Source of the DNA: Mycolicibacterium litorale
GTDB lineage: Bacteria; Actinomycetota; Actinomycetes; Mycobacteriales; Mycobacteriaceae
Length of the DNA: 64,000 nt
Direction: 5' to 3'
Assembly: GCF_014218295.1 (NCBI RefSeq)
Contig: NZ_AP023287.1
Location: forward strand, 3,596,001-3,660,000
Shown here: piece by piece, positions 18,103 to 34,946 of the stretch
Layout: every line of letters begins with the position of its first letter
How positions within the stretch are numbered: the stretch's first letter is position 1
The notes under the pieces: model-generated
Told to the model about the DNA's origin: nothing
The model's input: only the letters and a program-made list of their open reading frames with translations
The model's database searches: none
Position numbers and translations under genes: made by a program

Positions 18103-20712
18103 GTGGGGAATCATTCATGCCGCATGGGCGGCGCAGCATTCGCGGTCGGCATCGGGCTGCTTCTTTCGCCGGGTGTCGCGGCAGCCGATCCGGCTGCCGA
18201 CGCCACCGGAGGCGTCTCCGCCGACGCACCGGCGGATGCGCCGGCGGCCGAATCCGGTGACCGCGACGATCAGGTCGATACCGACAACGAAGCCGACGAC
18301 GATCCGGCCGACGATGCGGACGAGGCAGCCGACCCGAGTGAGGAGCCGCTGAGCGACGACGCCGAGGCGCCGTCGGAGCCCGTCGACGACACCGTCGACG
18401 AGGAGCTCGACGAGGTCGGCGAGACCGTCCGGCACGACTCGAACGACAACGACCCCGACGACGGCACCGCCTCGGCGCCCGCCGACGAACCCGTCGAAAC
18501 ACCCGTCGACGAGATCGCCGTCGACGTCCCGGACGAGGTCGTCGATGCCGAAGAGCCCGTCACACCCGTCGTCGAGGAGCCCGTCGTCGAGGAGCCCGTC
18601 GTCGAGGAGCCCGCGGTCGAGGTCCCCGCGGCGCAACCCGAAGCCGATGCCGACCCCGCCGCCGATGCCGAGGTGACCCCCGCGCCACCCGCACCCGCAG
18701 ACGAGGCCAGACCGCAGGGCCTCGTCCAGACGGTCGCGAACGCCTTCGGTCTCGGCGGCACGCCCGCTCCGGTCGAATCGCCCGCGATGTGGGCCGTGCT
18801 GGCGTGGGCACGCCGTCAGTTCTTCGGCGCGACGGCCACCACCACCGTCGGCCGGCAGAGCACCTCGTCGTCATCGACGACGTCCACACCGATCACCACC
18901 GTCAACGTCAAGGACTACGGAGCGGTCGGCGACGGCATCACCGACGATTCGGCCGCGATCAAGGCCGCCGAAGCCGCCCTGACATCCGGTCAGCGGCTCT
19001 ACTTCCCGGAGGGCACCTACCGGTTCGCACAGCAGAATCCGGCGGGCAACGCCGCGGTCCTGCTCAAGGGGCTCTCCGACGTGACCGTCGAGTTCGCGCC
19101 CGGGGCACGACTGTTGATGGACAACCTCGACGCCGACGGCCACGGCACGAGCCACGGCATCCGCGTGGAGGGTGCCGCGTCCAACGTCACGATCCTCAAC
19201 GCGACGGTCGAGTGGAAGACCAGGCCGTCGGCGCGCAGCTTCGGCGACGGCTTCTCCATCCTCGGCTGGGCGTCGAACACCCCGCCCCCGCCGGGTTGGA
19301 CCGGATCCACCGGAACCGTCTCGAACGTGTCGCTCGTCAACGCGACCGTGATCAACGCCCCCCAGACCGGGGCGGTCTTCATGGGCGCCTCCGACGTGAC
19401 GGTCACCAACTTCACCGCCATCGGCACCCGGGGCGACGGGCTGCACTTCAACTCCAACCGCCGGGTCACGGTCAACGGTCTCCTGGCACAGAACACCGGT
19501 GACGACGGCCTGGCGTTCGTCACCTACTACCACCCGACCCAGCCGTGGACGTACGGTCCCGGCGACGGACCGTTCAATCAGCCCGGACTCGGCGAGTGGA
19601 ACAACGGCGGCTCGGTGGCCTCCCACATCACCGTGACGGGCGGCTCGGCCAGTGGCGTCCGGGTGCAGGGCGGCTACGACATCACCATCACCGACGTCAC
19701 CGTCTCCGGCAAGGAGTTCGGCATCCAGGTCAACTCGGCCAAGGCCACCGGCCCCGGTGACTGGACCAGCCTGGCGTCTCGCGACATCGACATCTCCGAT
19801 GTCACCATCGACGACGTCCAGACCGGGATCGTCCTGGCCACCAACAACATCGACGGCACCGAGGACTCGATGTGGTGGGACTTCGCCGGCCTGACCATCA
19901 GTGACGTCACCATCCACAACGCCCGCAACTGGTCGGTCGCCGTCGAGACGCCCGCGTCGACGACGAGCGCGTTCGCCGGTCTCACCCTGCGCAACATCCA
20001 CGCGGAGGTCGACGGTGCCGTCGGACCGCTCGGCGGCGGGAAGGGCGGGATTCTGCTTGCCTCGCTTCGAGATTCGGTGATCGACAACGTGCGACTGGTG
20101 TCGGTCCACGCCAGCGACATCAATGTGCTGGGGGCGTCGCAGATCCGCCACCAGTACAGTGTCGCGGATCTGCCGTCGTCGAATCTGACGATCGACGACC
20201 TGGTTCTCGAGGGCCCGGGCCGGATCCTCATCCAGGACATCGCGGGTCTGCAGGTCGGTACCGTGGCGTCCTACGGCGCCCAGGGCGCTGCCGTCGAACT
20301 CTTCCGGGTGAGAGACGCCTCGTTCGGCACCATCGGCGCCTACCTGCCCGGCCGCGGAACCGGTGCGGGCTGGGGCGTGCGCCTGCTGCAGGTCGACGAC
20401 CTGGACGTGGCGGACATCGTGGTGACCACCGACGACCACATCGGATCCTCCTGGTGGGCAGTGGAACTCGGCGGCGGCAATCCGGCCGAGGACATCGCGG
20501 GCAACGGTGTGCGGATCGAGAACGTCACCTACGTGAGCGACCGCGACGCCACCGGGTCGGACATCGTCGTGCAGGGCGGTCCGTACGGCCCGGTCAACTG
20601 GTACATCAACGCCACGTGGCTGCACCAGGGTGAGGCGTCACCGCAATGGCGGTCGGCGCTGTGGGGCGACACCACGCCGGCGTCTCACATCCTCAGCAAC
20701 CCGGACTCCTGA
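18103..20712 (+). CDS. Secreted right-handed beta-helix (pectate-lyase/GH28-like) protein with acidic linker
   Basis: An 869-residue exported protein. The GTG at 18103 is preferred: a GGGGG ribosome site precedes it and a signal peptide follows (residues 1-28, cleavage after VAAA). Residues 29-205 form an extremely acidic Asp/Glu/Pro/Ala linker with VVEEP repeats. A short segment with AMWAVLAWARRQFF follows. The beta-helix domain starts at about residue 266 (VNVKDYGAVGDGITDDSAAI), the pectate-lyase-superfamily entry motif. GDGLHFN and NTGDDGLAF carry the conserved Asp residues seen in GH28-type active sites. It probably cleaves, modifies or binds the polymer made by this cluster. It is clearly paralogous to the lipoprotein at 26407-27954. 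The catalytic activity is inferred. Confidence 0.82.
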   Translation: MGNHSCRMGGAAFAVGIGLLLSPGVAAADPAADATGGVSADAPADAPAAESGDRDDQVDTDNEADDDPADDADEAADPSEEPLSDDAEAPSEPVDDTVDEELDEVGETVRHDSNDNDPDDGTASAPADEPVETPVDEIAVDVPDEVVDAEEPVTPVVEEPVVEEPVVEEPAVEVPAAQPEADADPAADAEVTPAPPAPADEARPQGLVQTVANAFGLGGTPAPVESPAMWAVLAWARRQFFGATATTTVGRQSTSSSSTTSTPITTVNVKDYGAVGDGITDDSAAIKAAEAALTSGQRLYFPEGTYRFAQQNPAGNAAVLLKGLSDVTVEFAPGARLLMDNLDADGHGTSHGIRVEGAASNVTILNATVEWKTRPSARSFGDGFSILGWASNTPPPPGWTGSTGTVSNVSLVNATVINAPQTGAVFMGASDVTVTNFTAIGTRGDGLHFNSNRRVTVNGLLAQNTGDDGLAFVTYYHPTQPWTYGPGDGPFNQPGLGEWNNGGSVASHITVTGGSASGVRVQGGYDITITDVTVSGKEFGIQVNSAKATGPGDWTSLASRDIDISDVTIDDVQTGIVLATNNIDGTEDSMWWDFAGLTISDVTIHNARNWSVAVETPASTTSAFAGLTLRNIHAEVDGAVGPLGGGKGGILLASLRDSVIDNVRLVSVHASDINVLGASQIRHQYSVADLPSSNLTIDDLVLEGPGRILIQDIAGLQVGTVASYGAQGAAVELFRVRDASFGTIGAYLPGRGTGAGWGVRLLQVDDLDVADIVVTTDDHIGSSWWAVELGGGNPAEDIAGNGVRIENVTYVSDRDATGSDIVVQGGPYGPVNWYINATWLHQGEASPQWRSALWGDTTPASHILSNPDS
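18568..18612 (+). repeat. Three 15-bp tandem repeats coding VVEEP
   Basis: GTCGTCGAGGAGCCC is repeated exactly three times (18568, 18583, 18598) inside the acidic linker of the beta-helix protein. The next unit is diverged (GCGGTCGAG...). It may vary in copy number between strains. Confidence 0.85.
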
Positions 20713-22070
20713 TACCGCAGATCCGTGTTGACCCCCCACGGATCGACGTCCTCGCCGAAGTACCGAGCGACGCTGCCCATCGCGCTGAGCATCGCGTGAT
20801 CCTGGTTGTCGTAATGGTGCATCCCGTTGCGGCCCATCGGCCGAAGCGACGGGTGCTCCCTGCGTAGGTAGTCGCGGATCACCGCGACGCTCGCCTCCCG
20901 GGCGGGGTCGTAGACGGGATAGGCGAACTGCGAGCGGACGATCATCATGCGCTCGACGGTGCCGGCACCCATGCCCAGCACCCGCAGATCCCGTTCGACG
21001 ATTCGCGCCATCTCGTCGTCGCTCGCCGCCCACAGATCGCCGCCGGATGTGGTGAAGTACTCCAGGCCGAGGTGGGCGCCGTGCCAGTGCGGCGGAGACA
21101 GTTCGGTCGACCACCGCGTGTAGTTCTGGATCCGCCCCACCCGCACCTCGGGACCCGGGGTGTACACCCAGTTGTAGGGCAGCTCGTGCCGTTGCCCGAG
21201 CGCGACGCCGACGGTGATCAGCGCGCGGTGCGTGAGGGCGGCGGCGGCGTCCCGGACCCGTTGTGGCGGAGCCGGTTCCAATGCGTCCACCAGCATCCGC
21301 AGCGGCATGCTGGAGAACACCGCATCGCCGGACGCCGTCTGCCCGTTCTCCAGCTCCACCGTCCATCCCCCGCCGCTCGACCGGACGGCGGCCACCGGCG
21401 AGCGCAGCGACAGGACCGCGCCGCCGTCGGCCGCAGCCGCCGCGGCCGCCTCCCACAGTTGACCGGGCCCGAGCCGGGGGTAGAGGAACACGTCGCGGGC
21501 GGCGAACCCGTCGGCGTCCCGCCAGCGGATCGGCCGTATCCGCTGGTTCGCCCAATCGCTGGTCAGGTCGGACGGATCCGCCAACCACGTCTTGCGGACG
21601 TATCCCTCGAAGAAGAGGCCGTACCAGTGCGTGCCGAATTCACCGATGCCCCAGTCCTCGAAGCTCTCGCGCGCGGTGCGACGCATTCGGTGCCGCAGCC
21701 GTCCCCACGCCAACGAGCCGAGCCCGCGCGCTCCGCTGCGCAGACCGAGCTGAGTCAGCAGCTCCCGGCCGACGAGGGGGTACCGCACGTGGTGACCGTC
21801 GACCAGCATGGCGGAGCGCCGAGCGACGGCGACCCACTGGTCGGCCGGCAGCAGCGATCGCCAGATGTCAAGGACCGCTTCGCTTCTGGTGAAGAACCGG
21901 TGTCCTCCGGCGTCGACGCGCCAGCCGTGCAGGCACGGGGTCCTGGCGAGCCCACCGACTTCCCCCGACGCCTCGTACAGCCGTGGCGTCACACCGCGTT
22001 TGACCAGCTCGAGTGCCGCGGTCAGGCCGGCGGGGCCGGCGCCGATGATCAGCGGACTCCTGGTCGACAC
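20685..22070 (-). CDS. UDP-galactopyranose-mutase/amine-oxidase-like FAD protein
   Basis: A 461-residue flavoprotein with the N-terminal dinucleotide-binding motif IIGAGPAGLTAALEL, then EASGEVGG and GGHRFFT. These are characteristic of a UGM/protoporphyrinogen-oxidase-like family often found in sugar-polymer loci. It may isomerise or oxidise a nucleotide sugar or a lipid-linked sugar. The GTG start at 22070 lies 4 bp after the end of the prenyltransferase frame, so they are in one operon. Its 3' end overlaps the convergent beta-helix gene by 28 bp. The exact reaction cannot be assigned. Confidence 0.75.
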   Translation of the reverse strand: MSTRSPLIIGAGPAGLTAALELVKRGVTPRLYEASGEVGGLARTPCLHGWRVDAGGHRFFTRSEAVLDIWRSLLPADQWVAVARRSAMLVDGHHVRYPLVGRELLTQLGLRSGARGLGSLAWGRLRHRMRRTARESFEDWGIGEFGTHWYGLFFEGYVRKTWLADPSDLTSDWANQRIRPIRWRDADGFAARDVFLYPRLGPGQLWEAAAAAAADGGAVLSLRSPVAAVRSSGGGWTVELENGQTASGDAVFSSMPLRMLVDALEPAPPQRVRDAAAALTHRALITVGVALGQRHELPYNWVYTPGPEVRVGRIQNYTRWSTELSPPHWHGAHLGLEYFTTSGGDLWAASDDEMARIVERDLRVLGMGAGTVERMMIVRSQFAYPVYDPAREASVAVIRDYLRREHPSLRPMGRNGMHHYDNQDHAMLSAMGSVARYFGEDVDPWGVNTDLRYQESGLLRM

Positions 22071-22074
22071 GGCG

Positions 22075-22740
22075 TCACCGTCCGCGGCGCTGGGGGAAGC
22101 GGCGATACTCCGCCACGAGGGCGTCGACCTGTCCCGGTCGGAGGTCGTTGAGCGGTGTGGTCAGAAAGACCAGTTGCGCGTACTGGCACTGCAGCGGCAG
22201 GAACCCGCTGAGCAACGGTTCGGCAGTGGTGCGGATGACCAGATCGACGTCCTCGATCTCGAAGGCGGCGGTGATGTCACAGCCTTCGCGCTGGGCACGC
22301 CGGTGCGCCTCGCGCAGTTCGTCGGCCGCGTCTTATGCCGCCAGGATGTTGATCCGGAACTGGTCACCGCCCATGGCGTTCTCGAGGTCCTCGGCGGCCT
22401 GGACGTATTCGGCTGGTAGCACCGTCCGATCGCCATGCAGTCTCACCGCGCACGTGGCGGGATCGAAGTTAGCGGGAATCAGGGAGGTGAAGAATTCGGT
22501 GGACGCCGCATAAACGGCATTCAATTCATCGTCTCGCCGCGCGAGGTTCGCACGGCTCAGGTTGTAGACCGACACCGTTTGCACACCGAGTTCGCGCAAT
22601 GTCAGGAGAATGTCGGTGACTTTTTGTGCGCCGCGCAGATATGCCTCGGCCAGTGTGACGCCATTGGCGTCCGCCCAGCGCCGCAGTCCGTCGGGAATCA
22701 GACCCACATGCGCCGGCCCCCCGGTCGGCAATAACCCCAC
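22075..22740 (-). pseudogene. Cis-prenyltransferase (UppS-like) gene with in-frame TAA stop
   Basis: A 222-codon frame that reads as an undecaprenyl-diphosphate-synthase-family protein but is split by TAA at 22333-22335. The N-terminal 135 residues contain HVGLIPDGLRRWA (the family's HVxxIxDGNxRWA, with the catalytic Asp kept and Asn replaced by Leu) and SRANLARRDDEL (family S-x-x-N-x-x-R). The stop falls after NILAA, exactly where the family has the Tyr of the NYGGR motif. The same frame then continues for 85 codons with the C-terminal hallmarks (DLVIRTTAEPLLSGF, YAQLVF, LRPGQVDALVAEY). A single TAC/TAT to TAA change explains it. It would supply a polyprenyl carrier for the cluster. It may be a recent null, a sequencing error or a readthrough case. 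The gene is somewhat lower in GC than its neighbours. Confidence 0.85.
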
Positions 22741-22769
22741 TTATCGATAGTAGCCGGATTGCTCCACGG

Positions 22770-22795
22770 ATAATCCGATACGGGCGACGGATTAT
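22770..22795 (-). repeat. Small hairpin between glycosylphosphotransferase and prenyltransferase genes
   Basis: ATAATCCG (22770-22777) and CGGATTAT (22788-22795) form an 8-bp perfect stem with a 10-nt loop across the glycosylphosphotransferase stop codon, in a locally AT-rich gap. It could modulate downstream expression. Function is not proven. Confidence 0.4.
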
Positions 22796-24327
22796 TCCTC
22801 GGTCGGCCGCAATACCGCCAGAACGGTCAACACCAGGATCTTGATATCCAGGAGAAGCGACCAGTTCTCGATGTAGTAGTTGTCGAATTCCGCCCGGTCG
22901 GCGATCGAGGTCTGCCCGCGCAGACCGTGCACCTGAGCCCAGCCGGTGATGCCGGCCTTCACCCGGTGCCGCTCCCCGTAGCGGCGTATGTGCATCTCGA
23001 ACAGCTCGACGAACTCCGGCCGCTCGGGGCGCGGGCCGACGAGGGCCATGTCGCCCTTGAGGACGTTGAGCAGCTGAGGCAACTCGTCCAGCGACGTCTT
23101 GCGCATGATCTTGCCGATCCGCGTGCGCCGGTCGTCCCCCTCGACCCCGCCGGGTGCCGCCCCCTCCTTCAGCTGGAAGGCGGCGTCGGCGGGATCTGCG
23201 GGACGCATGCTGCGGAATTTCAGGCAGTCGAACACCTTGCCGTCGCGTCCGACGCGGGGCTGCCGGAAGAAGATCGGTCCGGGTGAGCTCAGCTTGACCA
23301 GAAGCGCCAGCCCGAGGAAAACCGGTGAGATCACCAACAACACCACCGCCGCGATCGACCGGCCGAGGGCGTGCTTCATGGCGAACTGCCAACCCGTGAG
23401 ATCGACCGGCGCGAGGACCATCAGCGGCACCCCGCCCAGGTGCTCGATCCGCGCGTTGCCGTTGACGACGTCCATCATCCGGGGCACGACACGCACCCGC
23501 ATGCCCAGCCGGTGCGCCTCCTGGGCGCAGCGTGACAGCTGCTCACCCGGAACCGCCGACGGCGCGACGATCAGATCCTCGGCACCGGTGGCGCGGGCGG
23601 CGACCTCGAAGTTGTCGATCGACCCGTAGTAGGGCACATCAACCAGGTCGGCGTCACTGGGCCGGACCTCGTCGAGCACGCCGACGGGACGCAGGCCGTA
23701 ATCGGGCACCTGGGCCATCCGCGTGATGAGTTGGTTGGTGATCGGACCGGAGCCCACGATGAGTGCCGGCGCGCCGAAGCGGTACCGACGCCGCAGATAG
23801 CGCTGCGCGACCGACCTCGTCAGCCGGACCGCGGGCAGTACGACCGCCCCGCACAGCCATACCCTGATCATGACGTCACTCGGCCGGACGTGCGGCGTGA
23901 CCTGCTCGCCCGTCTGGAAGGGCGGCACCAGCACCGTGATGATCGCCAACGTCGCGAGCGCCGCGACCGCGACCGCCGTCTCCACCGGCTCGAGCTCGTC
24001 GATGAAGCTGCGATTGAGCTTCCGCTTGTACAGCGACCGGGAGGTCAGCACGATCAGCAGGATGGGCACGAACAGCCACGAGATCAGCAGGATGTTGCGG
24101 TTGTCCTGTTGATTGCCGATCCACAGATGCGCCAGCACCACGGCCCACGCGGCCGCCCAGACGTCGAGCGCCACGGTGATCGCGATGTACCCGGATTCGT
24201 TGCGCATGCGCTGAAACCAGCGGGGCGGAGCGGAGACTGGCGTGCGTGTGGACGGCGTAGCCGCCCGTTGACGGGGAACCGTCACCTGACTACTGGAAGT
24301 CATCGATCGCCGCCCGCACGTTTGCAT
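22792..24327 (-). CDS. Exopolysaccharide polyprenyl glycosylphosphotransferase (WbaP/WcaJ family)
   Basis: A 511-residue initiating enzyme that transfers a sugar-1-phosphate from a nucleotide sugar to a polyprenyl phosphate in the membrane. It has four N-terminal membrane segments (about residues 45-170), then a CoA-binding-like domain (ALIVGSGPITNQLI, about 195). A further membrane helix sits near residue 335. The catalytic domain has KFRSMRP, then SLDELPQLLNVLKGDMALVGPRPERP near residue 440, which is the family signature. The start may be the ATG at 24327 or the one at 24303; neither has a strong ribosome site. It heads the run towards the UppS-like and FAD genes. The sugar is unknown. Confidence 0.92.
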   Translation of the reverse strand: MQTCGRRSMTSSSQVTVPRQRAATPSTRTPVSAPPRWFQRMRNESGYIAITVALDVWAAAWAVVLAHLWIGNQQDNRNILLISWLFVPILLIVLTSRSLYKRKLNRSFIDELEPVETAVAVAALATLAIITVLVPPFQTGEQVTPHVRPSDVMIRVWLCGAVVLPAVRLTRSVAQRYLRRRYRFGAPALIVGSGPITNQLITRMAQVPDYGLRPVGVLDEVRPSDADLVDVPYYGSIDNFEVAARATGAEDLIVAPSAVPGEQLSRCAQEAHRLGMRVRVVPRMMDVVNGNARIEHLGGVPLMVLAPVDLTGWQFAMKHALGRSIAAVVLLVISPVFLGLALLVKLSSPGPIFFRQPRVGRDGKVFDCLKFRSMRPADPADAAFQLKEGAAPGGVEGDDRRTRIGKIMRKTSLDELPQLLNVLKGDMALVGPRPERPEFVELFEMHIRRYGERHRVKAGITGWAQVHGLRGQTSIADRAEFDNYYIENWSLLLDIKILVLTVLAVLRPTEE

Positions 24328-24459
24328 CCATGTGCCACACCCCTGCCTCCCCTTGCAGGTTCAACCTTAATTTAGCCGCGGCGGGGAGGGAAGAAAATCA
24401 GCGGCCCGGCAGAAGACGAATTTGCCGGAGTGTGCACCCACCGTCAGGTGGCGTGCGCG

Positions 24460-25176
24460 TCAACGTGGTTGGGAGCTACCCGATCCGAACATCCGCTCGG
24501 CGGCGAGATGGGCGAGGTCGCTGAGGATCTGCACGTGCCCGGTGCCCCACAACCGCGGTTTGTCGTCGAATACGCACAGCGTTCCGACCGCGTGGTCCTC
24601 GTGGTCGATCAACGGTATGCCGAGATACGCCACGACGGTGCCGTCGAGTACCGCCGGATGATTGCGGAACACCGGATCGGTTCGGGCGTCTTCGAGTAGT
24701 AATGCCGAGCCGTTTGCCACCGCGTATTGACATACCGACCGATCGAGTGGTGTCTGGCGCTCTTCTTCAGAAGTTCCCATTCCCACCGAGCTCTTGAAGA
24801 ACTGCCGGTCGACGTCCACCAGGGACATCGCCGCCGTCGGCGCGTCCAGCGCCGCGGCGGCCGCGCGGGTGATGCGGTCGTAGACCTCCTCCGGAGGCGT
24901 GTCGAGCAGCCCGGTGGCATACAGCGCCTGCAGGCGGCCGGGGTCGGTCACCTCGGCCTCGACACTGGGCATCTCGGCCTCGGCAAAGACCTTGCACTCG
25001 TTGAGGTGAGCCATCAGCTCCTCGACGGAGCCGCGTCCGCTGCGCCTCAGATCGGCCACCATCTGTGACCCTACGGCCCGGGCAACGTAGGAGACGACGT
25101 CTTCGCCTGCCTCGCGCGCACATTCCTCGAGCAGACGGTTGAGATAATCGTCGAACCCTGTCAGAGAGCCGGTCAT
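24460..25176 (-). CDS. GAF-domain sensor protein without an output domain
   Basis: A 238-residue protein. The N-terminal 90 residues are helical and unassigned. A GAF domain follows at about residues 95-235 (LLDTPPEEVYDRITR, SLVDVDRQFFKSSVG, then LGIPLIDHEDHAVGTLCVFD). No kinase, GGDEF or HTH part is attached, so it probably works through a partner or by small-molecule binding. The ATG at 25176 is chosen; the longer frame to 25320 invades the divergent promoter. It lies 132 bp upstream of the glycosylphosphotransferase and is divergent from a glycosyltransferase, suggesting a regulatory role in the polymer locus. Confidence 0.75.
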   Translation of the reverse strand: MTGSLTGFDDYLNRLLEECAREAGEDVVSYVARAVGSQMVADLRRSGRGSVEELMAHLNECKVFAEAEMPSVEAEVTDPGRLQALYATGLLDTPPEEVYDRITRAAAAALDAPTAAMSLVDVDRQFFKSSVGMGTSEEERQTPLDRSVCQYAVANGSALLLEDARTDPVFRNHPAVLDGTVVAYLGIPLIDHEDHAVGTLCVFDDKPRLWGTGHVQILSDLAHLAAERMFGSGSSQPR

Positions 25177-25291
25177 TCGAGAAACGGTATCCGAACCAGC
25201 CGACGCGGTGCACGTGAACAGGTGTGACCAAGTGGGGACGTCGACGCCGCGACGTAGCCTTGTTGAAAATGCACCATCAGGAGGCGGCCGA

Positions 25292-26410
25292 GTGGATCTG
25301 TTGTTCGACGCCAGGCACATCCGGCAGAGCGGTATCGGGACCTACATCCGCACTCAGTTGCCCTACCTGGAGGATGCGGCGGCGCGCAACGGGCTCTCCC
25401 TGGCGGTGCTGGCCGATCCCGACTCCCGGCCCGCGCTGCGACCGAGCACCGACATCATCCCGGCCTGTCCGTCGAATGCCGCGATGTACTCCGCGGCCGA
25501 ACAGGCGGCGTGGCGCCGCGCGTTGGAGCAGACGAGACCGCGCGCGGTGTGGCTGCCGCACTATCCCTATCCGTTGGCCCGCCTGCTTCCCGGTCTGCGC
25601 CGCACGTCGCTGTACGTCACAGTGCACGACACCATCCACCTGCTTCCCGAAGCCGTCAGCGGGCAGAGCCGCGCCCGCCGCCTGTATGCCCGCGCGATGC
25701 TCAAGGCCGACGCCAGACACTGTCGCCGGATCTTCACCGTCTCCGAAGCGACCGCGGCGACGCTGAAGGAGATCGAACCGTCGGCGCGGGTTCTGGTCAC
25801 CCCGATACCGGTGGACGAGGTGTGGCTGTCGCCGGCCGACCCGGCGTTGGCACCGGTGCGCGGCCGCTGTCTGCTCTACGTCGGAAACACCAAGCGGCAC
25901 AAGAACCTTCCATTGGTGATCGAGGTGTTCTCGGGTCTGACCGGGACTGTCCCCCACAAGCTGGTGATCGCCGGCGGCGGCGCCTCTCTGCGCACGCTCG
26001 ACCATCGGGTCCGCAGGCTTGCCGAGGACAACCCGGACCGGGTGCTGGTGACCGGGCAACTGGACTTCGCCGCCCTGCGCGCGCTCGTTGCCTCCGCGGA
26101 GTTGTTGATCATGCCGTCGCTGTACGAGGGCGCCGGACTCCCGCCGCTGGAGGCGATGGCGTCGCGAACCGCCGTGCTGGCGTCCGACATTCCCGCGCTG
26201 CGGGAGACCTGTGGTGACGGGGCGGAGTATTTCAATCCACACCGACCCGACGAGCTCGCACGGCTGCTGCGCACCTATTGCGCCGACGACGCGGCCAGGG
26301 CCGAGTTGGCCGAGCGCGGCCACGCCCACGTGTTGGCCCGCCAGCAGCGTACCCGCGCGACCGCCGCGGCCGACGCGATCTGCGCCGACCTCGGTGGCGC
26401 CACGACGTGA
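25292..26410 (+). CDS. Glycosyltransferase, GT4 family
   Basis: A 372-residue GT-B fold retaining glycosyltransferase, cytosolic or membrane-peripheral. The GTG at 25292 is chosen because AGGAGG lies 8 bp before it and it starts at the family's normal N-terminus (VDLLFDARHIRQSGIGTYI). The donor-binding C-terminal half has LLYVGNTKRHKNL (about residue 200) and the E-x7-E motif PSLYEGAGLPPLEAMA (about 285). It is divergent from the GAF gene, and its stop overlaps the next gene's GTG (GTGA). It probably adds one sugar of the repeat unit; donor and acceptor are unknown. Confidence 0.88.
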   Translation: MDLLFDARHIRQSGIGTYIRTQLPYLEDAAARNGLSLAVLADPDSRPALRPSTDIIPACPSNAAMYSAAEQAAWRRALEQTRPRAVWLPHYPYPLARLLPGLRRTSLYVTVHDTIHLLPEAVSGQSRARRLYARAMLKADARHCRRIFTVSEATAATLKEIEPSARVLVTPIPVDEVWLSPADPALAPVRGRCLLYVGNTKRHKNLPLVIEVFSGLTGTVPHKLVIAGGGASLRTLDHRVRRLAEDNPDRVLVTGQLDFAALRALVASAELLIMPSLYEGAGLPPLEAMASRTAVLASDIPALRETCGDGAEYFNPHRPDELARLLRTYCADDAARAELAERGHAHVLARQQRTRATAAADAICADLGGATT

Positions 26411-27954
26411 GACTGTCGAGGCGCGCACTGCTGGCGCGCGCGCCCGCCGCGGCCGCCGCGGCCGCGCTCGCCGCATGCGCACTGGACGGACGACCCACCG
26501 TCGTCGACGTCCGCGCGTTCGGGGCACGCGGTGACGGGATCGCCGACGACTCGCAGGCGATCCAGGCGGCCGCGGCGGCGCTCCGGCCCGAGGGCATACT
26601 TCGCTTCCCCAGGGGCGTCTACCGATTCGCGCAGCGCTGGCCGCCGGGGGGCGCGGCGATCGTCCTGTCCGGAACCACCGACGTCACCGTCGAATTCGAC
26701 CCGGGCGCCGAACTCTACATGGACAACCTCCACCCGACCGAACGCACCGGCAGCAGTCACGGCGTGCTCGTCCGCGGGCCGGTGTCACGAGTCACGCTGC
26801 GCGACATCAACATCCGCTGGGCTGACGGTGCGCGGCGATCACTCGGTGACGGCATCCGGGTCGAGGGTATGCCCACCGCGGGCGAGGATCCGCCGAGCGG
26901 CTGGCCGGGGCAGGACACACCGGTCGACGGCGTCGTCGTCTCCGGCTGCACCGTGCGGTCGAGCCCCCAGACCGGGGTCGTCATGCTCGGGGTCTCCGAC
27001 ATCGAGGTGACCGGGCTGCGGGTGACCGACAGCGGAGCCGACGGTCTGCATTTCAACGCATGCCGCAACGCCGTGGTCGACGGCTTCAGCGCCGTCAACA
27101 CCGGTGACGACGGGCTCGCGCTCGTCACCTACTTCACCCCGCAACCCGCGTTCGACGCCCCCTCGCACACGTTTTCGTTCCCCGACCTGACCGAGTGGTC
27201 GAACACCGACTTCAGGGTCTCGAACGTCAACGTGTTCGGCTGCCGGGCCAACGGTGTCCGGCTGGCGGGCGCGGCCGGTGTCGACATCCGGGGTCTCGAC
27301 GTCGTGGCGGTGCACTCCGGCTCGGCGTTCCTGGTCGACTCCGCCGAACCGGGCACCGACGTCGGATGGAATTACGTCGCCACCCGCGGAGTGCGGCTCG
27401 GCGACCTCACCGCCACGGACTGCGACATGGGCATCCACCTGCTCGCCCGACCGGGTGCCTCGGGCGACGCGCGGTTCACCGACTTCGACGTCCACGTCGA
27501 CGACGCGAAGATCGACGACTGCGCGACGTGGGCCGTGCGGGCCGAATCGCTGACCGACCGGCACACGACCGGCCTGCGCATCGACACCTGCAGTGTCACA
27601 GCGAGTTCCACCACGGGCGGCAACGGCGGGCTGGGGATCGCCACCTCGCGTGCGATCAGCTTCGGCGACATGTCGATCCGCCACTCCGAACCGGTCGTCG
27701 TGGTCGATGCCGTCGACGCCGAGGAGCTCACCGTCGACCATCTGAGCGTGGCGATCACCCGGCCGGATCCGCCCGACTCCGCCGCGAAATACGTGGTGTC
27801 GCTCGAGGATTCCAGCGGTGACATCGAGGAGCTGACGATCGGCTGGCCCGCGGCCCCCCGCTCGTGGATTCCGGTCCGGCGGTCGGCAGCGCTCGCCCTG
27901 CCGAACCTGACCGTCACTCCCCCGGTCGCGACCTCCTCGGTCCAGCGCCCCTGA
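26407..27954 (+). CDS. Tat-exported beta-helix lipoprotein (pectate-lyase/GH28-like)
   Basis: A 515-residue protein starting at the GTG that overlaps the upstream stop. The N-terminus combines a twin-arginine-like motif (LSRRALLAR) with a lipobox (LAAC, Cys24), so it is predicted to be Tat-exported and membrane-anchored by lipid. The beta-helix follows (VDVRAFGARGDGIADDSQAI, about residue 34), with GADGLHFN and NTGDDGLAL matching the same positions in the secreted paralogue at 18103-20712. It lacks the acidic linker. It is co-transcribed with a glycosyltransferase and is probably a periplasmic polymer-processing enzyme (hydrolase, lyase or epimerase). It converges on the polymerase gene with 41 bp overlap. 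Confidence 0.83.
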   Translation: MRLSRRALLARAPAAAAAAALAACALDGRPTVVDVRAFGARGDGIADDSQAIQAAAAALRPEGILRFPRGVYRFAQRWPPGGAAIVLSGTTDVTVEFDPGAELYMDNLHPTERTGSSHGVLVRGPVSRVTLRDINIRWADGARRSLGDGIRVEGMPTAGEDPPSGWPGQDTPVDGVVVSGCTVRSSPQTGVVMLGVSDIEVTGLRVTDSGADGLHFNACRNAVVDGFSAVNTGDDGLALVTYFTPQPAFDAPSHTFSFPDLTEWSNTDFRVSNVNVFGCRANGVRLAGAAGVDIRGLDVVAVHSGSAFLVDSAEPGTDVGWNYVATRGVRLGDLTATDCDMGIHLLARPGASGDARFTDFDVHVDDAKIDDCATWAVRAESLTDRHTTGLRIDTCSVTASSTTGGNGGLGIATSRAISFGDMSIRHSEPVVVVDAVDAEELTVDHLSVAITRPDPPDSAAKYVVSLEDSSGDIEELTIGWPAAPRSWIPVRRSAALALPNLTVTPPVATSSVQRP

Positions 27955-29221
27955 GCTTGCCTGCCACCAGTGCACATCCGCCGGTCAGCAGCAGCAGGAA
28001 GACGACGATGCCATAACTGAGAATCTGCACCCGCCACACCTCGAGGAAGCAGTAGGCCACCACACCCGCGGAGCCGGCGATCACGGGACTGAAGCTGAAC
28101 ATGCGCGCGAAGACGTACCCGGCGAACCCGTACGCCAGGATGGTGTAGAGCCAGCCCCACGCCCCGTGTTCGGCGTAGATGTCGGCGAAGACGGAGTTGG
28201 TGAAGAAGTTGCCCGCGAAGGTGACCGAATAGCCGTAGACCGACGACTGTTTCCAGCTGTCGTCCTTGGCGACCTTGTTGAACTGCAGGAAGGTGGGTTT
28301 GACCGCGTCCATCGACGACACCGCGCCGCCCCGGTTCTCCCAGGCCCCGCTGACCACCGCGTCGGACACCCCGAGGGAGACCTGCGCCGGCACCGCGAGA
28401 TACGCCCCCGACTGGTAGACGTTCATCGCCACCGGGTTCGAGACGCCGGCCTCCCGGTAGTAGTTGGCGTTGCGGAAGTAGTTGAGGGCGGTGAGCACAC
28501 CGAATCCGGTGAGCGCGATCAGTCCGACCGCGATCCACGTGCGCGCCGCGGAACCGCCCGTCACGCGCCGCGGTTGACGGCCTCGCACCCACGCCGCCAG
28601 GAAAACGGCGCACGCCATCAGCAGGGCCAGTCGTGAGGCGATCATGGCGTTGGCGACCAGGAGCAGCACCGCCCCCACCATGTACGGCCATCCGATGACC
28701 TTCTTGCGCCACAGATACACCCCGATGGGCGCGGCCAGGATGGTGGCGTACCGCAGGGTCTGCGGGCCGGCGAAACCGGAGAGTGCGTTGCTGAAGTCAT
28801 TGGCGGTCTGTTCGCTCAGCGATGCGATGATGGCGGGGATCCCGCCCACCTTCCAGAACGAGTACCCCACTCCGAGAACGCCGGCGGTCAGGAGCAGGAA
28901 GAAGTAGCGCCGTTCGAACCGGGCGGTGCTCGTCGGTTCGTCACCGGTGGTGGGCCGCGAACGCTGTGTGCCCCACCAGTATCCGACCATCGAGACCATC
29001 ACGATCGCGCAGTACCACAGCACCAGCAGCGCGATCCCCCGTCCGGTGACCTCGGCCGGAGTGGAGAACCCGGTCAGCGCCTCGGATGCGGCCTCCGGTT
29101 GCCCCAGTCGCTGACGGGCGAACAGCGCCGACCACGCCAGGAAGGACATACCGACCGGCGCCAGGATCAACACCGCGGGCGTGAACCACGCGGGCGCGCG
29201 GGCGCTTCCGGTGGTGGTCAT
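27914..29221 (-). CDS. O-antigen/EPS polymerase-like integral membrane protein (Wzy-type)
   Basis: A 435-residue polytopic membrane protein with about ten hydrophobic segments and a large external loop (about residues 265-340, between ALNYFRNANYY and YSVTFAGNFFTNS). This topology fits polymerases that join lipid-linked repeat units outside the membrane. The ATG at 29221 overlaps the flippase stop (ATGA). It is the last gene of the four-gene Wzz-GT-Wzx-Wzy run. The assignment rests on topology and context, since Wzy sequences are poorly conserved; a WaaL-type ligase is the main alternative. Confidence 0.7.
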   Translation of the reverse strand: MTTTGSARAPAWFTPAVLILAPVGMSFLAWSALFARQRLGQPEAASEALTGFSTPAEVTGRGIALLVLWYCAIVMVSMVGYWWGTQRSRPTTGDEPTSTARFERRYFFLLLTAGVLGVGYSFWKVGGIPAIIASLSEQTANDFSNALSGFAGPQTLRYATILAAPIGVYLWRKKVIGWPYMVGAVLLLVANAMIASRLALLMACAVFLAAWVRGRQPRRVTGGSAARTWIAVGLIALTGFGVLTALNYFRNANYYREAGVSNPVAMNVYQSGAYLAVPAQVSLGVSDAVVSGAWENRGGAVSSMDAVKPTFLQFNKVAKDDSWKQSSVYGYSVTFAGNFFTNSVFADIYAEHGAWGWLYTILAYGFAGYVFARMFSFSPVIAGSAGVVAYCFLEVWRVQILSYGIVVFLLLLTGGCALVAGKLRGAGPRRSRPGE

Positions 29222-30384
29222 CCGGACCGCTGACGCAGTCGCCGGACGCCGAACGCCGCCGCGTAGTCCGGTGCCCCTCTGACCGCGGCACAGTGGTAGA
29301 CCACGGCGGTGATCAACTCGGACACCGCGAAGGCCACGAAGATCGCCGCGGTGCTCTGCCACACCAGCAGGAAACCGACGCTGATCGCCAGATAGACGAC
29401 GGTGCTGGCGCCGCGGATCCAGAACACGAGAACCGTCTTGCCCGCCTTGCGCAGCGCGGCGAACGGCACGGTGGACACCAGCATCAGTGCTTTCCACAGG
29501 CAGGCCAGCAGCATCGCGGCGACGCCGACGCCCTGCCACGCCGGACCGAAGACCAGGCTGCCGATGCCGCCGAACGCGGCGACGAGCACCGCCACCATGC
29601 CGACGACGAACACCGCGACGAATGCCTTCAGCTCACCGCGGTGCCCGTGCGCGAGCAGGCGGTACCGGCCGTAGGCGAGGATCGGCTCCAACGCCCCCGC
29701 GACCGTCGAGATGACCCGGAACGTGACCGAGGCCGCCGGTCCCACCAGGACCAGCAGCAGCGAGGTGATCGCCGGTTGCACGGCGCCGACGACCGCCGTC
29801 TCCGCGGTCACCCAACTCGATCTGCGGACATCCGGGGGAAACCCCATCCGCGGCATCGTCTTGCGGGGACGGTAGCGAACCACGACCGCGAGCAGGGCGC
29901 CCACCGCCAGCACCCGAACGCAGTGCGGATTGTGGTGGGCGGCCAGCCACAGTGCGACCAGGCTGGCGACGATCAAGGCCGCCGCGGCCAGGCCCTCGCT
30001 CTTCCACTCGCCGGTGACCACCCCGATCGAGCGGGTCATCAGCAGGCCGGTCATCACCCCGATGGCGCTGGCCATCAGCACCGCCGACGACGCGACCGGC
30101 GGCCCGAACACCAGCAGTCCGCATGCCACGACGCTCAACGCCACCACCCATGTGGGCAGTCCCAGGTCGCCGTCGGCGTCGGGGGTCGCCAGCCGCCCCT
30201 CGACGACGAACGCGTTGAACAGCTGTGCGACGTAGACGCCGACGGCGAGCGCCAACGCGAGGAAACCCTGCGTCTCGATCGGCGCGATGCGCGCGTAGAT
30301 GGCGATGAAGATCGCCGGGAAGACGTTGAGCGCAAGACCGGCGACCACCTGTACGGCGGTGTGCAGGTGCCTGCTGTCAGCCAT
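29218..30384 (-). CDS. Polysaccharide flippase-like membrane protein (Wzx/MATE type)
   Basis: A 388-residue protein of about 12 hydrophobic segments (first VQVVAGLALNVFPAIFIAIYA, last near LITAVVYHCAAV). It probably flips the lipid-linked repeat unit across the membrane. The ATG at 30384 is used; the gene overlaps the glycosyltransferase stop by 8 bp and the polymerase start by 4 bp, so translation is coupled. No close family signature is visible, so the call relies on topology and on its place between a glycosyltransferase and a Wzy-like gene. Confidence 0.7.
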   Translation of the reverse strand: MADSRHLHTAVQVVAGLALNVFPAIFIAIYARIAPIETQGFLALALAVGVYVAQLFNAFVVEGRLATPDADGDLGLPTWVVALSVVACGLLVFGPPVASSAVLMASAIGVMTGLLMTRSIGVVTGEWKSEGLAAAALIVASLVALWLAAHHNPHCVRVLAVGALLAVVVRYRPRKTMPRMGFPPDVRRSSWVTAETAVVGAVQPAITSLLLVLVGPAASVTFRVISTVAGALEPILAYGRYRLLAHGHRGELKAFVAVFVVGMVAVLVAAFGGIGSLVFGPAWQGVGVAAMLLACLWKALMLVSTVPFAALRKAGKTVLVFWIRGASTVVYLAISVGFLLVWQSTAAIFVAFAVSELITAVVYHCAAVRGAPDYAAAFGVRRLRQRSG

Positions 30385-31495
30385 GGCGGTGGGTCGCCAA
30401 CGTCTCCGCCACCACGTCGGCCATCTTCGCGCGGAACGCCTCCGGCGAGAAGTGTTCGGCGCGTTGCCGAATGGCGCCAGGGTCGAACAGACCGTTGTCG
30501 AAGGAGGCGAACGCCTCGGCGAAATTGGTGACGATCTCGGCGTCGGTGTGGCCGGTGACGAAGGTCCCGGTGACACCGTCGACGACGCTGTCGAGCGCGC
30601 CACCGACCCCGAGCGCGACCACCGGCGTGCCGCACGCCATGGCCTCGACGGGGGTGATGCCGAAGTCCTCCTCCCCCGGCATGACCATCGCCCTGGCGCG
30701 GCGGTAGAGGTCGCGGAACTCCTCGTTGGACACCCGGCCGAGGAAGGTGACGTCGCCGCCTTCGGCGAGCTTGCGGCATCGGGCGGCTTCCCGCCCGTCG
30801 CCGGCCACCACCAGCTTCACCCCGGCATTCACGGCCGCCCTGATGGCGATGTCCGGGCGCTTGTAGGCGACCAGGCGGCCGGCCAGCAGGAAGTAGTCGC
30901 CACGGGTCTGCGCCGCGTCCGGGGTGTAGAAGTCGATGTCGACCGGCGGGTGAACCACCCGGGCCTCGCGATTCCAGTGGTCCTTGATCCGCTGGGCCAC
31001 GGTGGTGCTGTTGGCCACGATCGAGGTGATCTTCGGGGCGGCGTCGAGTTCGACCGCGATCGCCAGCCGGGACAGCACGTCCAGCGCCAGGCGGCCGGGT
31101 AGCGACGGGGCCTCTTCGCGGCGCATCTTCTTGTCCCAGGCCCACCGTGCCGGGGAGTGCACGTACACGATCGTCGGTCTGGGCCCTGCGGCCTTGACCG
31201 CGGCGGCGGCGAAGGCGTGATGGCTGATGAGCACCGCGTCCGCCGAACCGAAGTCGCGGCGCCGCAACCAGCCCGGTACGAGCGGGAGCAACGGGGCATA
31301 GGTGCGGTAGCGCGCCGCGCGGTACGCCGACGACAGCGCTCCGGTCCGCACGCGTGCGCTGAACGGCGCGGTGACCCGGGGATCGACGATGGGGATGTGG
31401 ATCGGCGCATCGGGCCACTGCCGGGCGAATTCGGCGACGACGTTCTCCGAGCCGGCGATCTCGGTCAGTCGTTCGTGGACGATCGCGACCGTCAC
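30377..31495 (-). CDS. Glycosyltransferase, GT4 family (second)
   Basis: A 372-residue GT-B enzyme. The GTG at 31495 overlaps the upstream stop (GTGA). The N-terminus MTVAIVHERLTEIAGSENVV is the usual GT4 opening. The donor domain has LLAGRLVAYKRPDIAIRA (about residue 210) and the E-x7-E motif EEDFGITPVEAMACGTPVV (about 285), with a GVGGALDSVVDG tail typical of mannosyl- or rhamnosyl-type GT4 enzymes. It probably extends the lipid-linked repeat unit on the inner face of the membrane. It is not close in sequence to the other GT4 in the cluster, so the two probably add different sugars. Confidence 0.9.
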   Translation of the reverse strand: MTVAIVHERLTEIAGSENVVAEFARQWPDAPIHIPIVDPRVTAPFSARVRTGALSSAYRAARYRTYAPLLPLVPGWLRRRDFGSADAVLISHHAFAAAAVKAAGPRPTIVYVHSPARWAWDKKMRREEAPSLPGRLALDVLSRLAIAVELDAAPKITSIVANSTTVAQRIKDHWNREARVVHPPVDIDFYTPDAAQTRGDYFLLAGRLVAYKRPDIAIRAAVNAGVKLVVAGDGREAARCRKLAEGGDVTFLGRVSNEEFRDLYRRARAMVMPGEEDFGITPVEAMACGTPVVALGVGGALDSVVDGVTGTFVTGHTDAEIVTNFAEAFASFDNGLFDPGAIRQRAEHFSPEAFRAKMADVVAETLATHRHG

Positions 31496-32757
31496 TGCAT
31501 ACTCCGCTCGTCGCTCGGCTGTGGTGAAGGTGGTGAATCCGGTTGGCGTCTCGGCAGCAGCGCGCCGAGCGCCCTGCGGTAGGTGAACACCGCCACCACG
31601 GGCGCCTCGCCGGCGGCGGTCGCCGCCCGCAGCGCCACCGCCTGTTCGGAGGTGTCGCCGTCGAGCCGGGCCACCAGCACGATGGCGCTCGCCGCGCCGA
31701 CCGCGGCCGGTGTGAGCGCCGCATCGCCGACCACTCCGCCGTCGACCACCCGCGCGGCATACGGCTCCGCCGCGCGCTCGGCCGCCCACTGCTCGAGCAG
31801 CGTGGCGACCACGGCGCTGCCCGAGGACGCGGATGCCCCGACGACGAGGATCTCCCCTCCCCGCACGGTCGACGGGATCTGCGAGTAGAGGGTCCTGGCG
31901 AGTCGAAGCTGCTCGTCGTCGTGCCGGCCACCGGGGGGTGTGGCGCCGAGATCGACGGCGGGCAGCAGCACACCGTCGACGCTGTCGGTCAGCGTGGCCG
32001 CCATCGCGCCGCGCCCTGAACGCCGCCGTCGCGCCAGCAGCACCGCCACCGCACCCGCGCCGCCGACCAGCCCGCCGAGGAACACCCCGATCAGCCACTG
32101 GCCGGAGCTGGGGTGGTTCGGTGTCGGCGGTTGCACGACCAGCAACGTGGCGGCCTCCTCGGCCTGAAGTTCGACGCTCTCCCGCAACCGGGCGAGTTCC
32201 TGCATCCTCGGGACGTCCGCGGTGTCCCGCTGCTGCCACTGCGTGAGCGCGGGGAGGATGGCGCGGAGTTGCTCGTCGACGCGCTGTGCGAGCTCCTGGC
32301 GATACAGGTCGATCGCCACCTGGACGGTTCTCATCGCCTCCTCGCGGGATTTGCTGCTGGTGCTGATCGTGACGACGGCCGACTCGCTGGCTTGTGCGAC
32401 GTTGAGGACCGCCGGCTCGTCCAGCGCCATTTTCCTGGCGACGGCCTGGGCGAAACCCTCGCCGGACAGATAGGCGATTTCGCCGCCGACGAAATTGCTC
32501 GTATTGCCCTGGTTGTCCGGCGTCACCTGACTCGCCCCTGCCGCGATCGCGGTCAGGTCCGCCGGATTCTGTAGACGCACAAAGGCTGTCGCGGTCGTAT
32601 CGGATCCCAGTGCCGCGAACGCCGCACCGCCGACCAGCGCACCAGCGCAGAGCCCGACGAGCGCGGCCACGATGAGTTTTGTTCGCACCAGGCGCGATTC
32701 CAGCGAAGAAATCAACCCGACCGCGGGCGCCGGAACCCTCGACACATTGGCAGACAA
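31492..32757 (-). CDS. Wzz-like chain-length protein with degenerate ATPase half
   Basis: A 421-residue protein. Transmembrane segment 1 is about residues 28-50, a mostly helical external domain (about 51-215) follows, and transmembrane segment 2 is about 220-242. A cytoplasmic half (about 245-400) then resembles the tyrosine-kinase/ExoP ATPase fold. Where Walker A should be, it reads VVGASASSGSAVVATLL, with no Lys, and no clear Walker B is seen. The C-terminus lacks a Tyr cluster. It probably sets chain length without kinase activity. The start is TTG at 32757; the GTG at 32745 is possible. It is the first gene of the Wzz-GT-Wzx-Wzy run. Confidence 0.75.
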   Translation of the reverse strand: MSANVSRVPAPAVGLISSLESRLVRTKLIVAALVGLCAGALVGGAAFAALGSDTTATAFVRLQNPADLTAIAAGASQVTPDNQGNTSNFVGGEIAYLSGEGFAQAVARKMALDEPAVLNVAQASESAVVTISTSSKSREEAMRTVQVAIDLYRQELAQRVDEQLRAILPALTQWQQRDTADVPRMQELARLRESVELQAEEAATLLVVQPPTPNHPSSGQWLIGVFLGGLVGGAGAVAVLLARRRRSGRGAMAATLTDSVDGVLLPAVDLGATPPGGRHDDEQLRLARTLYSQIPSTVRGGEILVVGASASSGSAVVATLLEQWAAERAAEPYAARVVDGGVVGDAALTPAAVGAASAIVLVARLDGDTSEQAVALRAATAAGEAPVVAVFTYRRALGALLPRRQPDSPPSPQPSDERSMQ

Positions 32758-32972
32758 CTCCGCGGCACTCCGTCCTGACCCTCGATGCGACCAATATCGT
32801 AATGGCCCGGTTCCATTCGCCGGGCAGACTCAGTATCGGCGATGAACCAGTAAACACGTTGTCCCTTCAACAAGCTGGGCGGCGCGTCCCTCTTTTTGGG
32901 AAGGCGATTTGCCGGTAACGTCCGGCGCCAGGGGGTGACGAGGGAAGCCCACTGACTCGGAACTGGAGCGGC

Positions 32973-34946
32973 GTGTCTGTCGGGTTTACTCGTGCGATTG
33001 CCTGCCGAATCGTCAGCCTGTTCGTGTCGTTGACGGTGGTGACGGCGCTGTGTGCGCCGACCGCCGCGCAGGCCGCCCCGCTCAACGCCGACCCCTCCGC
33101 CGGCGGGGAGGTCGCGCTGCCGTGGCGCACCTTGGGTCTGCCCGGCGACCTCACCCTGGTCGGCGCCAATACCAATCAGGATTTCGCGCTGCCCGTGCCC
33201 ACGGGTTTCACACCCACCCGACTACGCGGATTGATCCACGCGCCGGTCGATTTCGGCGCCGGGTTCGTCGAGATCACCGACACCACCGGCAGATTCCTGG
33301 CGACGGTGAACCTGCCTGCCGTGGCACCGGATCAGGCCGTGGTGCCGTTCGACGTCGACATCTCCCCGGCGCGGGTGAGCGCAGGCGAGGTCGGGCTGTC
33401 GTTCACCGTGCGCGAAGCCGCGATCGCGGCCGACGACCGGTGCGGGTTGGGCGAACAGGTCGAGATCAGCGATCTCAGCACCGTGTTCGCCGGTATCGAA
33501 CCGGCGCCGACCACGGTGGCCTCCTTCTTTCCCCCTGTGCTGCAACGGCTGACGATCTACGCGCCGATCGACGCCGACGACGGCGAGGAGCAGGCCGTGC
33601 TCACGCTGGCGTCCGCGGTGGCGCGGATGTACCGGCCGCAGACCACCGCGATCACGGTGGTCAAGCAGCCCCGTGGCGCCGTACCGCCGGCGGCACCGCA
33701 GTTCACCCGAGCGGTCGTCGTCGAGAACGGAGATGCCGGGGTGGCCGTCGTCAACCCCGACACGGCCGACGTGTACCTGAAGCTGACCGGGCGCGGCGAC
33801 CAACTCGCCGCTCAGGCGTCGCTGGTGACCAACCAGGTGCAGTCGTTGGTGCAGGTGCCCGACGCGCGGGTCGACCAGGCCGGGTCCCGAGGCGACTCGG
33901 TGGGCGACGACCTGACGTTCGGGGCGTTGAACATGAACGGTGAGGGCTCGGTGCTGCGCACGTCGACGTTCACCGTCGGCGCCGACCGCGCCGCCCTGGG
34001 CGCCGGGCGCGTCGAGGGGCTGCAGGTGCACCTGCTCGCCACCCACACACCGGTACAGGCGCTGGACTCGGCTTCGGTGACGGTGAAAGTGAACGGGCAG
34101 GCGGTGCACACCGCCGCACTGGGCGACAGTGGCCGCGTCGACGCCGTGTTCGAGGTGCCGGGCCAATTCCTCGGGCAGCGAGTCAATTTCGACTTCGACC
34201 TGACGTACAGCCCGCGCCAGCTGTGTTCGCCGACCATCGCGCCGGTGAGCTTCCAGCTCGACCCGCGTTCGACGCTGACGGTGCGGCGCGGCGGCCCCCC
34301 GCTCGGCGGATTCGACGGGCTGCCTTCGGAATTCAGCCCGGAATTCCTCGTCGCGCTCGACGGCAGCAATCCCAATCAGCTGCACTACGCGACGCAGGTG
34401 ATCGCCGACATCGCCCAGCGAACCGATACCACGCTGATGCCGCGTGTCGTCGACGTGAACGCCGCGGCCGACGCCGGTATGGGCGCCCTGATCGTCGCCA
34501 ATGCCGCCACCATCGAGCAGACCTCGCTGCGGCCACCCGTCGGCGGTGAGAGCTCCGAGGTCCAGGTGGATCTGCGCGACCAGCTTCGGGCCCAGATCAA
34601 TCGTGGCCTTGGCTCGATCCAGGCGTTCGCCGACGCGCCGCGCGACCGCACGGTCGTTCTCGTGACGACCAGCGGGGCGTGGTCACTGGTCGAACCGCTC
34701 TTCGGCTACATCGATCAGCAGCCGGACGGCTGGTCCAGCCTCACCGGCGACGTTCTGGCCGCCGGCGCGGAGGGCCGCGTCACCAACCTGACCATCGGGG
34801 CCGGCGACAGCGCACCGGCCGCTCCGCGAGACACCGGCGACCGGCAGGTATGGGCCGCCGTCGGCGCCGGGATCGTCGTCCTCATCGCGCTCGCGGCGGG
34901 CGCGGCGGTGTGGTGGCGGAGCCGCCGCGGAGCGGCCCAGCGCTGA
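32973..34946 (+). CDS. BcsB-like membrane-anchored extracytoplasmic protein
   Basis: A 657-residue protein with a signal peptide (residues about 1-34, cleavage near AQA) and a C-terminal membrane helix (about 628-648) ending WWRSRRGAAQR. The large extracytoplasmic part resembles BcsB, the periplasmic partner of cellulose synthase (for example FFPPVLQRLTIYAP near residue 190, and a conserved Cys pair region). BcsB normally escorts glucan emerging from BcsA, but no BcsA/GT2 gene is in the window, so it may bind the heteropolymer made here. The GTG start follows GGAG. It is divergent from the wzz-like gene across 215 bp that should hold both promoters. Confidence 0.68.
   Translation: MSVGFTRAIACRIVSLFVSLTVVTALCAPTAAQAAPLNADPSAGGEVALPWRTLGLPGDLTLVGANTNQDFALPVPTGFTPTRLRGLIHAPVDFGAGFVEITDTTGRFLATVNLPAVAPDQAVVPFDVDISPARVSAGEVGLSFTVREAAIAADDRCGLGEQVEISDLSTVFAGIEPAPTTVASFFPPVLQRLTIYAPIDADDGEEQAVLTLASAVARMYRPQTTAITVVKQPRGAVPPAAPQFTRAVVVENGDAGVAVVNPDTADVYLKLTGRGDQLAAQASLVTNQVQSLVQVPDARVDQAGSRGDSVGDDLTFGALNMNGEGSVLRTSTFTVGADRAALGAGRVEGLQVHLLATHTPVQALDSASVTVKVNGQAVHTAALGDSGRVDAVFEVPGQFLGQRVNFDFDLTYSPRQLCSPTIAPVSFQLDPRSTLTVRRGGPPLGGFDGLPSEFSPEFLVALDGSNPNQLHYATQVIADIAQRTDTTLMPRVVDVNAAADAGMGALIVANAATIEQTSLRPPVGGESSEVQVDLRDQLRAQINRGLGSIQAFADAPRDRTVVLVTTSGAWSLVEPLFGYIDQQPDGWSSLTGDVLAAGAEGRVTNLTIGAGDSAPAAPRDTGDRQVWAAVGAGIVVLIALAAGAAVWWRSRRGAAQR

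Follow-up and report, generated by a model that had tools for sequence, protein, structure and literature searches.

How would a mycobacterium assemble a polysaccharide by the Wzx/Wzy route, and what would carry the chain towards the mycomembrane? The question is raised by a stretch of 64,000 nucleotides, called the window here, from the single-contig genome (5,634,149 bases) of Mycolicibacterium litorale (G000:C1:3596001-3660000), in which twelve genes, A to L, occupy positions 18103-34946 and make up a Wzx/Wzy-type polysaccharide locus. No described mycobacterial polymer of this kind was found among the papers listed from the open-licence literature, which leaves most subscription papers outside. 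Family matches, protein folds and gene order support the Wzx/Wzy interpretation, first proposed from the letters alone (hereafter the original prediction), and make it very likely that the locus builds a heteropolysaccharide by this route. All the parts then named are present about where they were placed: family or fold supports D as a glycosylphosphotransferase, F and J as GT4 glycosyltransferases, I as a MOP-fold flippase, H as belonging with Wzy polymerases and L as having the BcsB fold.

The Wzx-like flippase I (29218..30384, minus strand; 388 aa) has no Pfam match. Its AlphaFold2 model is all-helical, with about 12 membrane segments counted by hand and 10 by a simple scan, and has the MOP fold, the top Foldseek match being WzxE (AlphaFold2 model). 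The Wzy-like polymerase H (27914..29221, minus; 435 aa) is recognised through its relatives: 17 of the 33 members of its alignment match PF14296 (O-ag_pol_Wzy) at E <= 0.1, with a best value of 1.7e-7, the next family being DUF3810 (5/33), and several relatives carry the source names O-antigen polymerase or oligosaccharide repeat unit polymerase. Leaving aside a 99% entry that carries no source and is taken to be the window's own, the closest named match of the H protein by identity is from Mycolicibacterium baixiangningiae (90%). That I and H might be unrelated membrane proteins, a possibility raised in the original prediction itself, is rejected by the fold of I and the family of the relatives of H.

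Both belong to K-J-I-H, four minus-strand genes (wzz-like, GT4, wzx-like, wzy-like) that overlap head to tail, as had been described, here measured at 4, 8 and 4 bases. K (31492..32757, minus; 421 aa) is a putative Wzz-like co-polymerase; this assignment, also made earlier, comes from architecture and position, not from family. By eye, two membrane segments flank an extracytoplasmic part and the C-terminal part resembles a degenerate P-loop; a simple scan counts 4 hydrophobic segments. In other loci, the position next to bcsB that K occupies here is taken by PF02706 genes. Among 128 sampled genomes of the genus, a K-type gene is found in 9 (E <= 1e-10) and I in 7, all seven of which have a K-type gene within 5 kb and a BcsB match within 10 kb; in the seven mycobacterial loci of the window's type (type 1), the K-type gene lies next to bcsB. 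One related locus (L079) contains two K-type genes, as well as an epimerase/dehydratase gene beside wzy.

L (32973..34946, plus; 657 aa) follows a signal-like N-terminus (by eye) with a full-length BcsB fold and a C-terminal helix at residues 625-656. Close relatives of L (at least 47% identity, hereafter L-type BcsB) account for 25 matches in the genus, all by Wzx-, Wzy- or Wzz-like genes, several of them confirmed by Pfam. In 22 of the 25 loci, according to coordinates read by hand from the locus listings, bcsB and a wzz-type gene are divergent, with gaps of 216-744 bases; in the window, the corresponding stretch between K and L (32758..32972) is the presumed promoter region, and no sigma-70-type match was found in it. 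A CelA-like synthase lies within 5 kb of 0/25 L-type BcsB, versus 43/86 of the more distant BcsB matches. This count takes profile rows to E 3.1e-7; rows weaker than that, and second fragments of a gene already counted, are excluded, and by eye none of them is within 5 kb of a BcsB match of at least 47%; the CelA cut-off itself is reached by no genome of the genus. Because L-type BcsB stand by Wzx/Wzy/Wzz genes and have no CelA-like synthase within 5 kb, their arrangement suggests that they form a BcsB subfamily at the service of Wzx/Wzy polymers. A cellulose locus, a candidate because of the BcsB fold, is rejected since there is no CelA-like synthase near L. The same genome has a second BcsB-like gene (G000:C1:621065-622948, in the L087 region, which runs to 624156), which directly adjoins a CelA-like GT2 and is, with it, a synthase-type pair distinct from L.

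From its fold and gene neighbourhood only, we infer that L is the periplasmic export part of the pathway. A different view of L, which we consider rather unlikely in the face of this neighbourhood, is that it is a surface carbohydrate-binding protein with a BcsB fold, whose place beside wzz would reflect nothing beyond shared regulation. Its N-terminal part does resemble carbohydrate-binding modules, and we know of no BcsB that works without BcsA.

For a Wzx/Wzy pathway, the initiating enzyme would be D (22792..24327, minus; 511 aa), a polyprenyl glycosylphosphotransferase by PF02397 (213.2 bits) and TIGR03025 (396.7 bits, cut-off 295.55); it falls below the cut-offs of the WcaJ and WbaP models in the NCBIfam scan, so no sugar can be assigned from them. 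Next to it are the GAF-domain protein E (24460..25176, minus, start uncertain; PF01590 3.5e-14), the UppS-like gene C (22075..22740, minus), of the cis-prenyltransferase family, and the UDP-galactopyranose mutase (UGM)-like FAD protein B (20685..22070, minus). B scores 710.6 bits (cut-off 380) with NF005547, an NCBIfam equivalog that bears the name 'hypothetical protein', and its top PDB match by profile is UDP-galactopyranose mutase 4dsg (6.3e-30). These four genes form a separable module. Elsewhere, E-D-C-B is found with no H or I relatives within the fetched 20 kb (tblastn, with open reading frame lists read by eye): in G197 and G335 it lies close to tRNA-Gly and trigger factor, in G399 beside gene P (see below), and in both G334 and G408 by genes that look ribosomal-protein-like (by eye), G408 also having a locus of a second type described below. 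Of the 18 fetched loci that contain a D match, 15 have a relative of E by that of D (exceptions L083, L085 and L086). B and C go together as a pair: 23 strong B matches (>400 bits) occur in 22 of the 128 genomes and 22 C matches (E <= 1e-30) in 21, B lying within 200 bases of C in 22/22 cases and C beside B in 22/23. A transferase is found within 3 kb of at least 18 of the 22 C matches, G386 and G370 having a distant one only (29% and 36% identity); such transferase counts are lower bounds, taken from 150 glycosylphosphotransferase rows among the matches listed. Within a family-wide sample of 301 genomes, C occurs in four, all of the window's genus.

Further glycosylphosphotransferases were seen in the same genome. 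A fourth (G000:C1:3851070-3852527, L085) is 59% identical to D, the rest of the locus being unmatched within the fetched 20 kb and its neighbours resembling lipid-metabolism genes (by eye). Two more are accompanied by a K-type Wzz-like gene (40% identical) at G000:C1:1403867-1419179 (L086, L153), with GT4-like and beta-helix-like matches nearby and, by eye, purK/purE-like genes in between; this may be another polymer locus.

The UppS-like gene predicted earlier is confirmed as to family, since both of its pieces match PF01255 (61.5 and 35.3 bits, cut-off 27), but it is not intact: an in-frame TAA at 22333-22335 splits it, both pieces being in one frame. A UppS cis-prenyltransferase would call for an open gene with both substrate sites, but C is interrupted here, and the Arg and Glu presumed to form the second site are not retained in 10/10 relatives. 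A conserved read-through stop is rejected, as the window's copy alone has the stop among the 11 compared. The pathway might be falling out of use in this strain, with the TAA as a mark of decay (or a sequencing error): all ten compared relatives have a sense codon at this position, and 21 of the 22 genus matches are free of the stop. We think this unlikely, since the other eleven genes of the locus are all open, and G177 and G338 keep a type-1 locus with no C match at E <= 1e-30 anywhere in their genomes. The latter two also imply that C need not belong to polymer assembly. In a functioning Wzx/Wzy pathway, the broken C would mean that the polymer may be altered in this strain, or that C is dispensable.

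Chain building would fall to two GT4 glycosyltransferases, F (25292..26410, plus, start uncertain, with 25208 possible; PF00534 6.9e-25) and J (30377..31495, minus; PF00534 8.4e-25). PDB matches of F are at 3.5e-9 or weaker and include PimA, while the top match of J is the mannosyltransferase WbaZ-1 (2f9f, 1.9e-15, residues 198-318). F overlaps G (26407..27954, plus) by 4 bases. G and A (18103..20712, plus, start codon uncertain; 869 aa) are predicted beta-helix proteins of pectate lyase/GH28 type, an assignment supported by family: A matches PF12708 (55.4 bits, cut-off 27), PF13229 (33.9, cut-off 25.9) and PF00295, the GH28 family (28.7, cut-off 22.9), and G matches PF13229 (32.8 bits, cut-off 25.9) and PF12708 (28.5 bits, cut-off 27). 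By eye, A has a signal-like N-terminus and a long acidic/proline-rich region, and G a Tat-lipoprotein-like signal. Elsewhere, a Williamsia locus carries two G-type genes in tandem (L083:3530-6792), and a membrane acyltransferase (PF01757) adjoins a type-1 locus at L080:5275-6573, a hint of an acylated polymer there.

The product could also be a short or wall-linked glycan instead of a free or capsular polymer, H joining or capping an oligosaccharide on lipid, protein or wall and K and L having other roles. In favour of this reading are the general relatedness of polymerases and ligases of the H kind, the frequent linkage of mycobacterial glycans to lipid or wall, and the failure to recognise K as a Wzz. 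We nevertheless hold it to be improbable: relatives of H match the polymerase family PF14296 and none of those in the alignment the ligase family PF04932, the K-type gene stands beside bcsB in every type-1 mycobacterial locus, and the locus holds two beta-helix proteins of a kind acting on polymers.

When gene content is compared more widely, two other mycobacteria (G382 and G337) have the same genes in the same order, at 67-88% identity, and others have them rearranged; the two loci are at the same tRNA site, with A about 6.7 and 4.5 kb from the tRNA versus less than 0.2 kb in the window. Beyond mycobacteria, loci of Williamsia and Rhodococcus type (L083, L084, L088) combine F, G, H, I and J. 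H is found in 8 of the 301 family genomes, one being a weak partial match at 2.2e-4. In the named genome collection, a count based on two peptide patterns gives 22 loci with polymerase relatives: 16 mycobacterial (including one metagenome-assembled genome and one uncultured), 3 Rhodococcus, 2 Gordonia and 1 Williamsia. With so patchy a presence (Wzx 7/128, Wzy 8/301), the locus is an accessory cassette, inserted here at a site shared with other species. The 'core region' of the original prediction therefore holds for its neighbours (trigger factor, ClpP, ClpX), but not for the locus. A compositional island is rejected, the GC content of the region (0.66-0.71) not being distinct within the window. 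A chance grouping of ordinary genes for membrane transport and sugar metabolism is hardly credible, even with Wzx- and Wzz-like proteins lacking Pfam matches, because fold and family evidence speaks against it and the gene order recurs in G382 and G337.

An L-type BcsB is also part of another kind of Wzx/Wzy locus that recurs in mycobacteria, type 2 (wzy2/wzz2, mostly with wzx2; L082, L135-L143). One type-2 Wzy match (L142:6204-7514) contains a stop codon. No Pfam match was obtained for a candidate Wzy in L149 or for a 2-TM gene in L148.

Under the Wzx/Wzy reading, D would transfer a hexose phosphate onto polyprenyl phosphate, F and J would add to it until the unit has three sugars or more, I would flip the unit and H would polymerise it outside the plasma membrane, with K setting chain length. 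The C-terminal helix of L would fix this protein in the plasma membrane, and L would act with K in the periplasm and pass the chain towards the mycomembrane, thereby filling the place of the outer-membrane export proteins of Gram-negative Wzx/Wzy systems. A and G would trim or remodel the chain outside the cell, and B and C might serve the initiation step through sugar or carrier supply. A more specific model, to which we give slightly less than an even chance, is that a dedicated BcsB subfamily, whose gene is divergent from that of the co-polymerase, sits as a collar on Wzz-Wzy in the periplasm and conducts the chain to the mycomembrane with no cellulose synthase, one export part serving several exchangeable flippase/polymerase cassettes as in an antigen-like system. 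In this model, the UppS-like/UGM-like pair would be a carrier-binding protein lacking an isopentenyl site and a mutase-like flavoenzyme, acting at initiation, perhaps on a lipid-linked sugar.

Several results weigh against the pathway as drawn. The fold of I is common to MATE drug transporters, one of which heads a second fold comparison, and its profile link to PF13440 flippases is unconvincing (probability 3.8). Profile searches of the PDB gave no relative of I, no meaningful one of H and no BcsB for L. The window's own H does not match PF14296, nor did a search of its whole genome with that family return anything. K matches no Wzz family, PF02706 is found in 0/7 members of its alignment, and its profile aligns weakly with PF02706-type proteins, in the C-terminal part only (probability 13.9, E 0.002). 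L is recognised as BcsB by fold and hardly by sequence: it is under the PF03170 cut-off (17.1 bits versus 21), a family matched at E <= 0.1 by 4 of the 30 members of its alignment. Among the transferase matches listed, few are within 20 kb of an L-type BcsB (at least 6/25 have one), so that the initiating enzyme is often encoded at another place. Finally, C is interrupted in the very strain studied.

The borders of the locus are those first described. On the left, tRNA-Gly (tcc; 17863..17935, plus; ARAGORN) is followed outwards by tRNA-Pro (17649-17723, minus) and trigger factor (16171-17586, minus; Pfam Trigger_N/C), clpX and clpP being further neighbours on this side; an fdhD gene lies at 12298-13122. 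On the right is a molybdopterin oxidoreductase (34961-37189, minus). This molybdoenzyme is an optional neighbour, gene P directly following L in L078; P (37199-38257 in the window) has no Pfam match and adjoins the same site in other species.

To our knowledge, how polysaccharides cross the mycomembrane is an open question, and a BcsB subfamily tied to Wzx/Wzy loci would offer named genes with which to study it in environmental species. L-type BcsB stands by such genes in 25 of the 128 sampled genomes, with no described product in the papers listed. The locus may bear on colony form, biofilms and encounters of environmental mycobacteria with other organisms.

Among the actinobacterial cases described in the papers listed, the nearest counterparts are the Actinoplanes missouriensis clusters wps and imp (PMC13390465). 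With this capsule/exopolysaccharide pathway the locus shares an initiating sugar phosphate transferase, glycosyltransferases, a MOP-fold flippase, a Wzy-type polymerase and a gene in the Wzz position; it differs in its mycobacterial host, in a flippase and a co-polymerase too diverged for Pfam, in its BcsB-fold protein and in the GAF, UppS-like and UGM-like genes that accompany the transferase. An outer-membrane export protein (Wza/OPX) is a feature of Gram-negative Wzx/Wzy systems; Pfam finds none among the twelve genes, the rest of the genome not having been searched for OPX. The second mycobacterial type resembles the locus in that bcsB and wzz diverge from each other, the BcsB is L-type, and there are a flippase and a polymerase, but it has recognised families: PF13440, PF04932 and PF02706 in L082 and PF13440 in L137, the others being assigned by tblastn to L082. 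With the BcsA-BcsB system L shares the complete BcsB fold and a helix at the C terminus, but none of its 25 close relatives has a CelA-like synthase within 5 kb. In the portions available, the literature credits M. neoaurum and M. cosmeticum with genes for putative cellulose synthase parts and M. tuberculosis with seemingly neither BcsA nor BcsB (PMC6364259), reports no BcsA/BcsB orthologues in M. tuberculosis and a BcsA domain in M. marinum EpsH (PMC12167362), or, in PMC7112194, leaves mycobacteria unmentioned. C lies in the family of UppS and decaprenyl diphosphate synthase and keeps the catalytic Asp region; unlike these cis-prenyltransferases, its ten relatives all have Leu and Gln/His for the Arg and Glu of what we take to be the isopentenyl diphosphate (second-substrate) site. 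B, lastly, aligns over residues 6-330 with eukaryotic-type UDP-galactopyranose mutase and keeps its His, Trp, Tyr and Arg in 11/11 sequences, along with the C-terminal Tyr and Asn-Gln positions, though that part aligns weakly; unlike UGM, it has Glu/Asp in 11/11 at a UGM Arg that is presumably UDP-binding, and its constant neighbour is a UppS-like gene.
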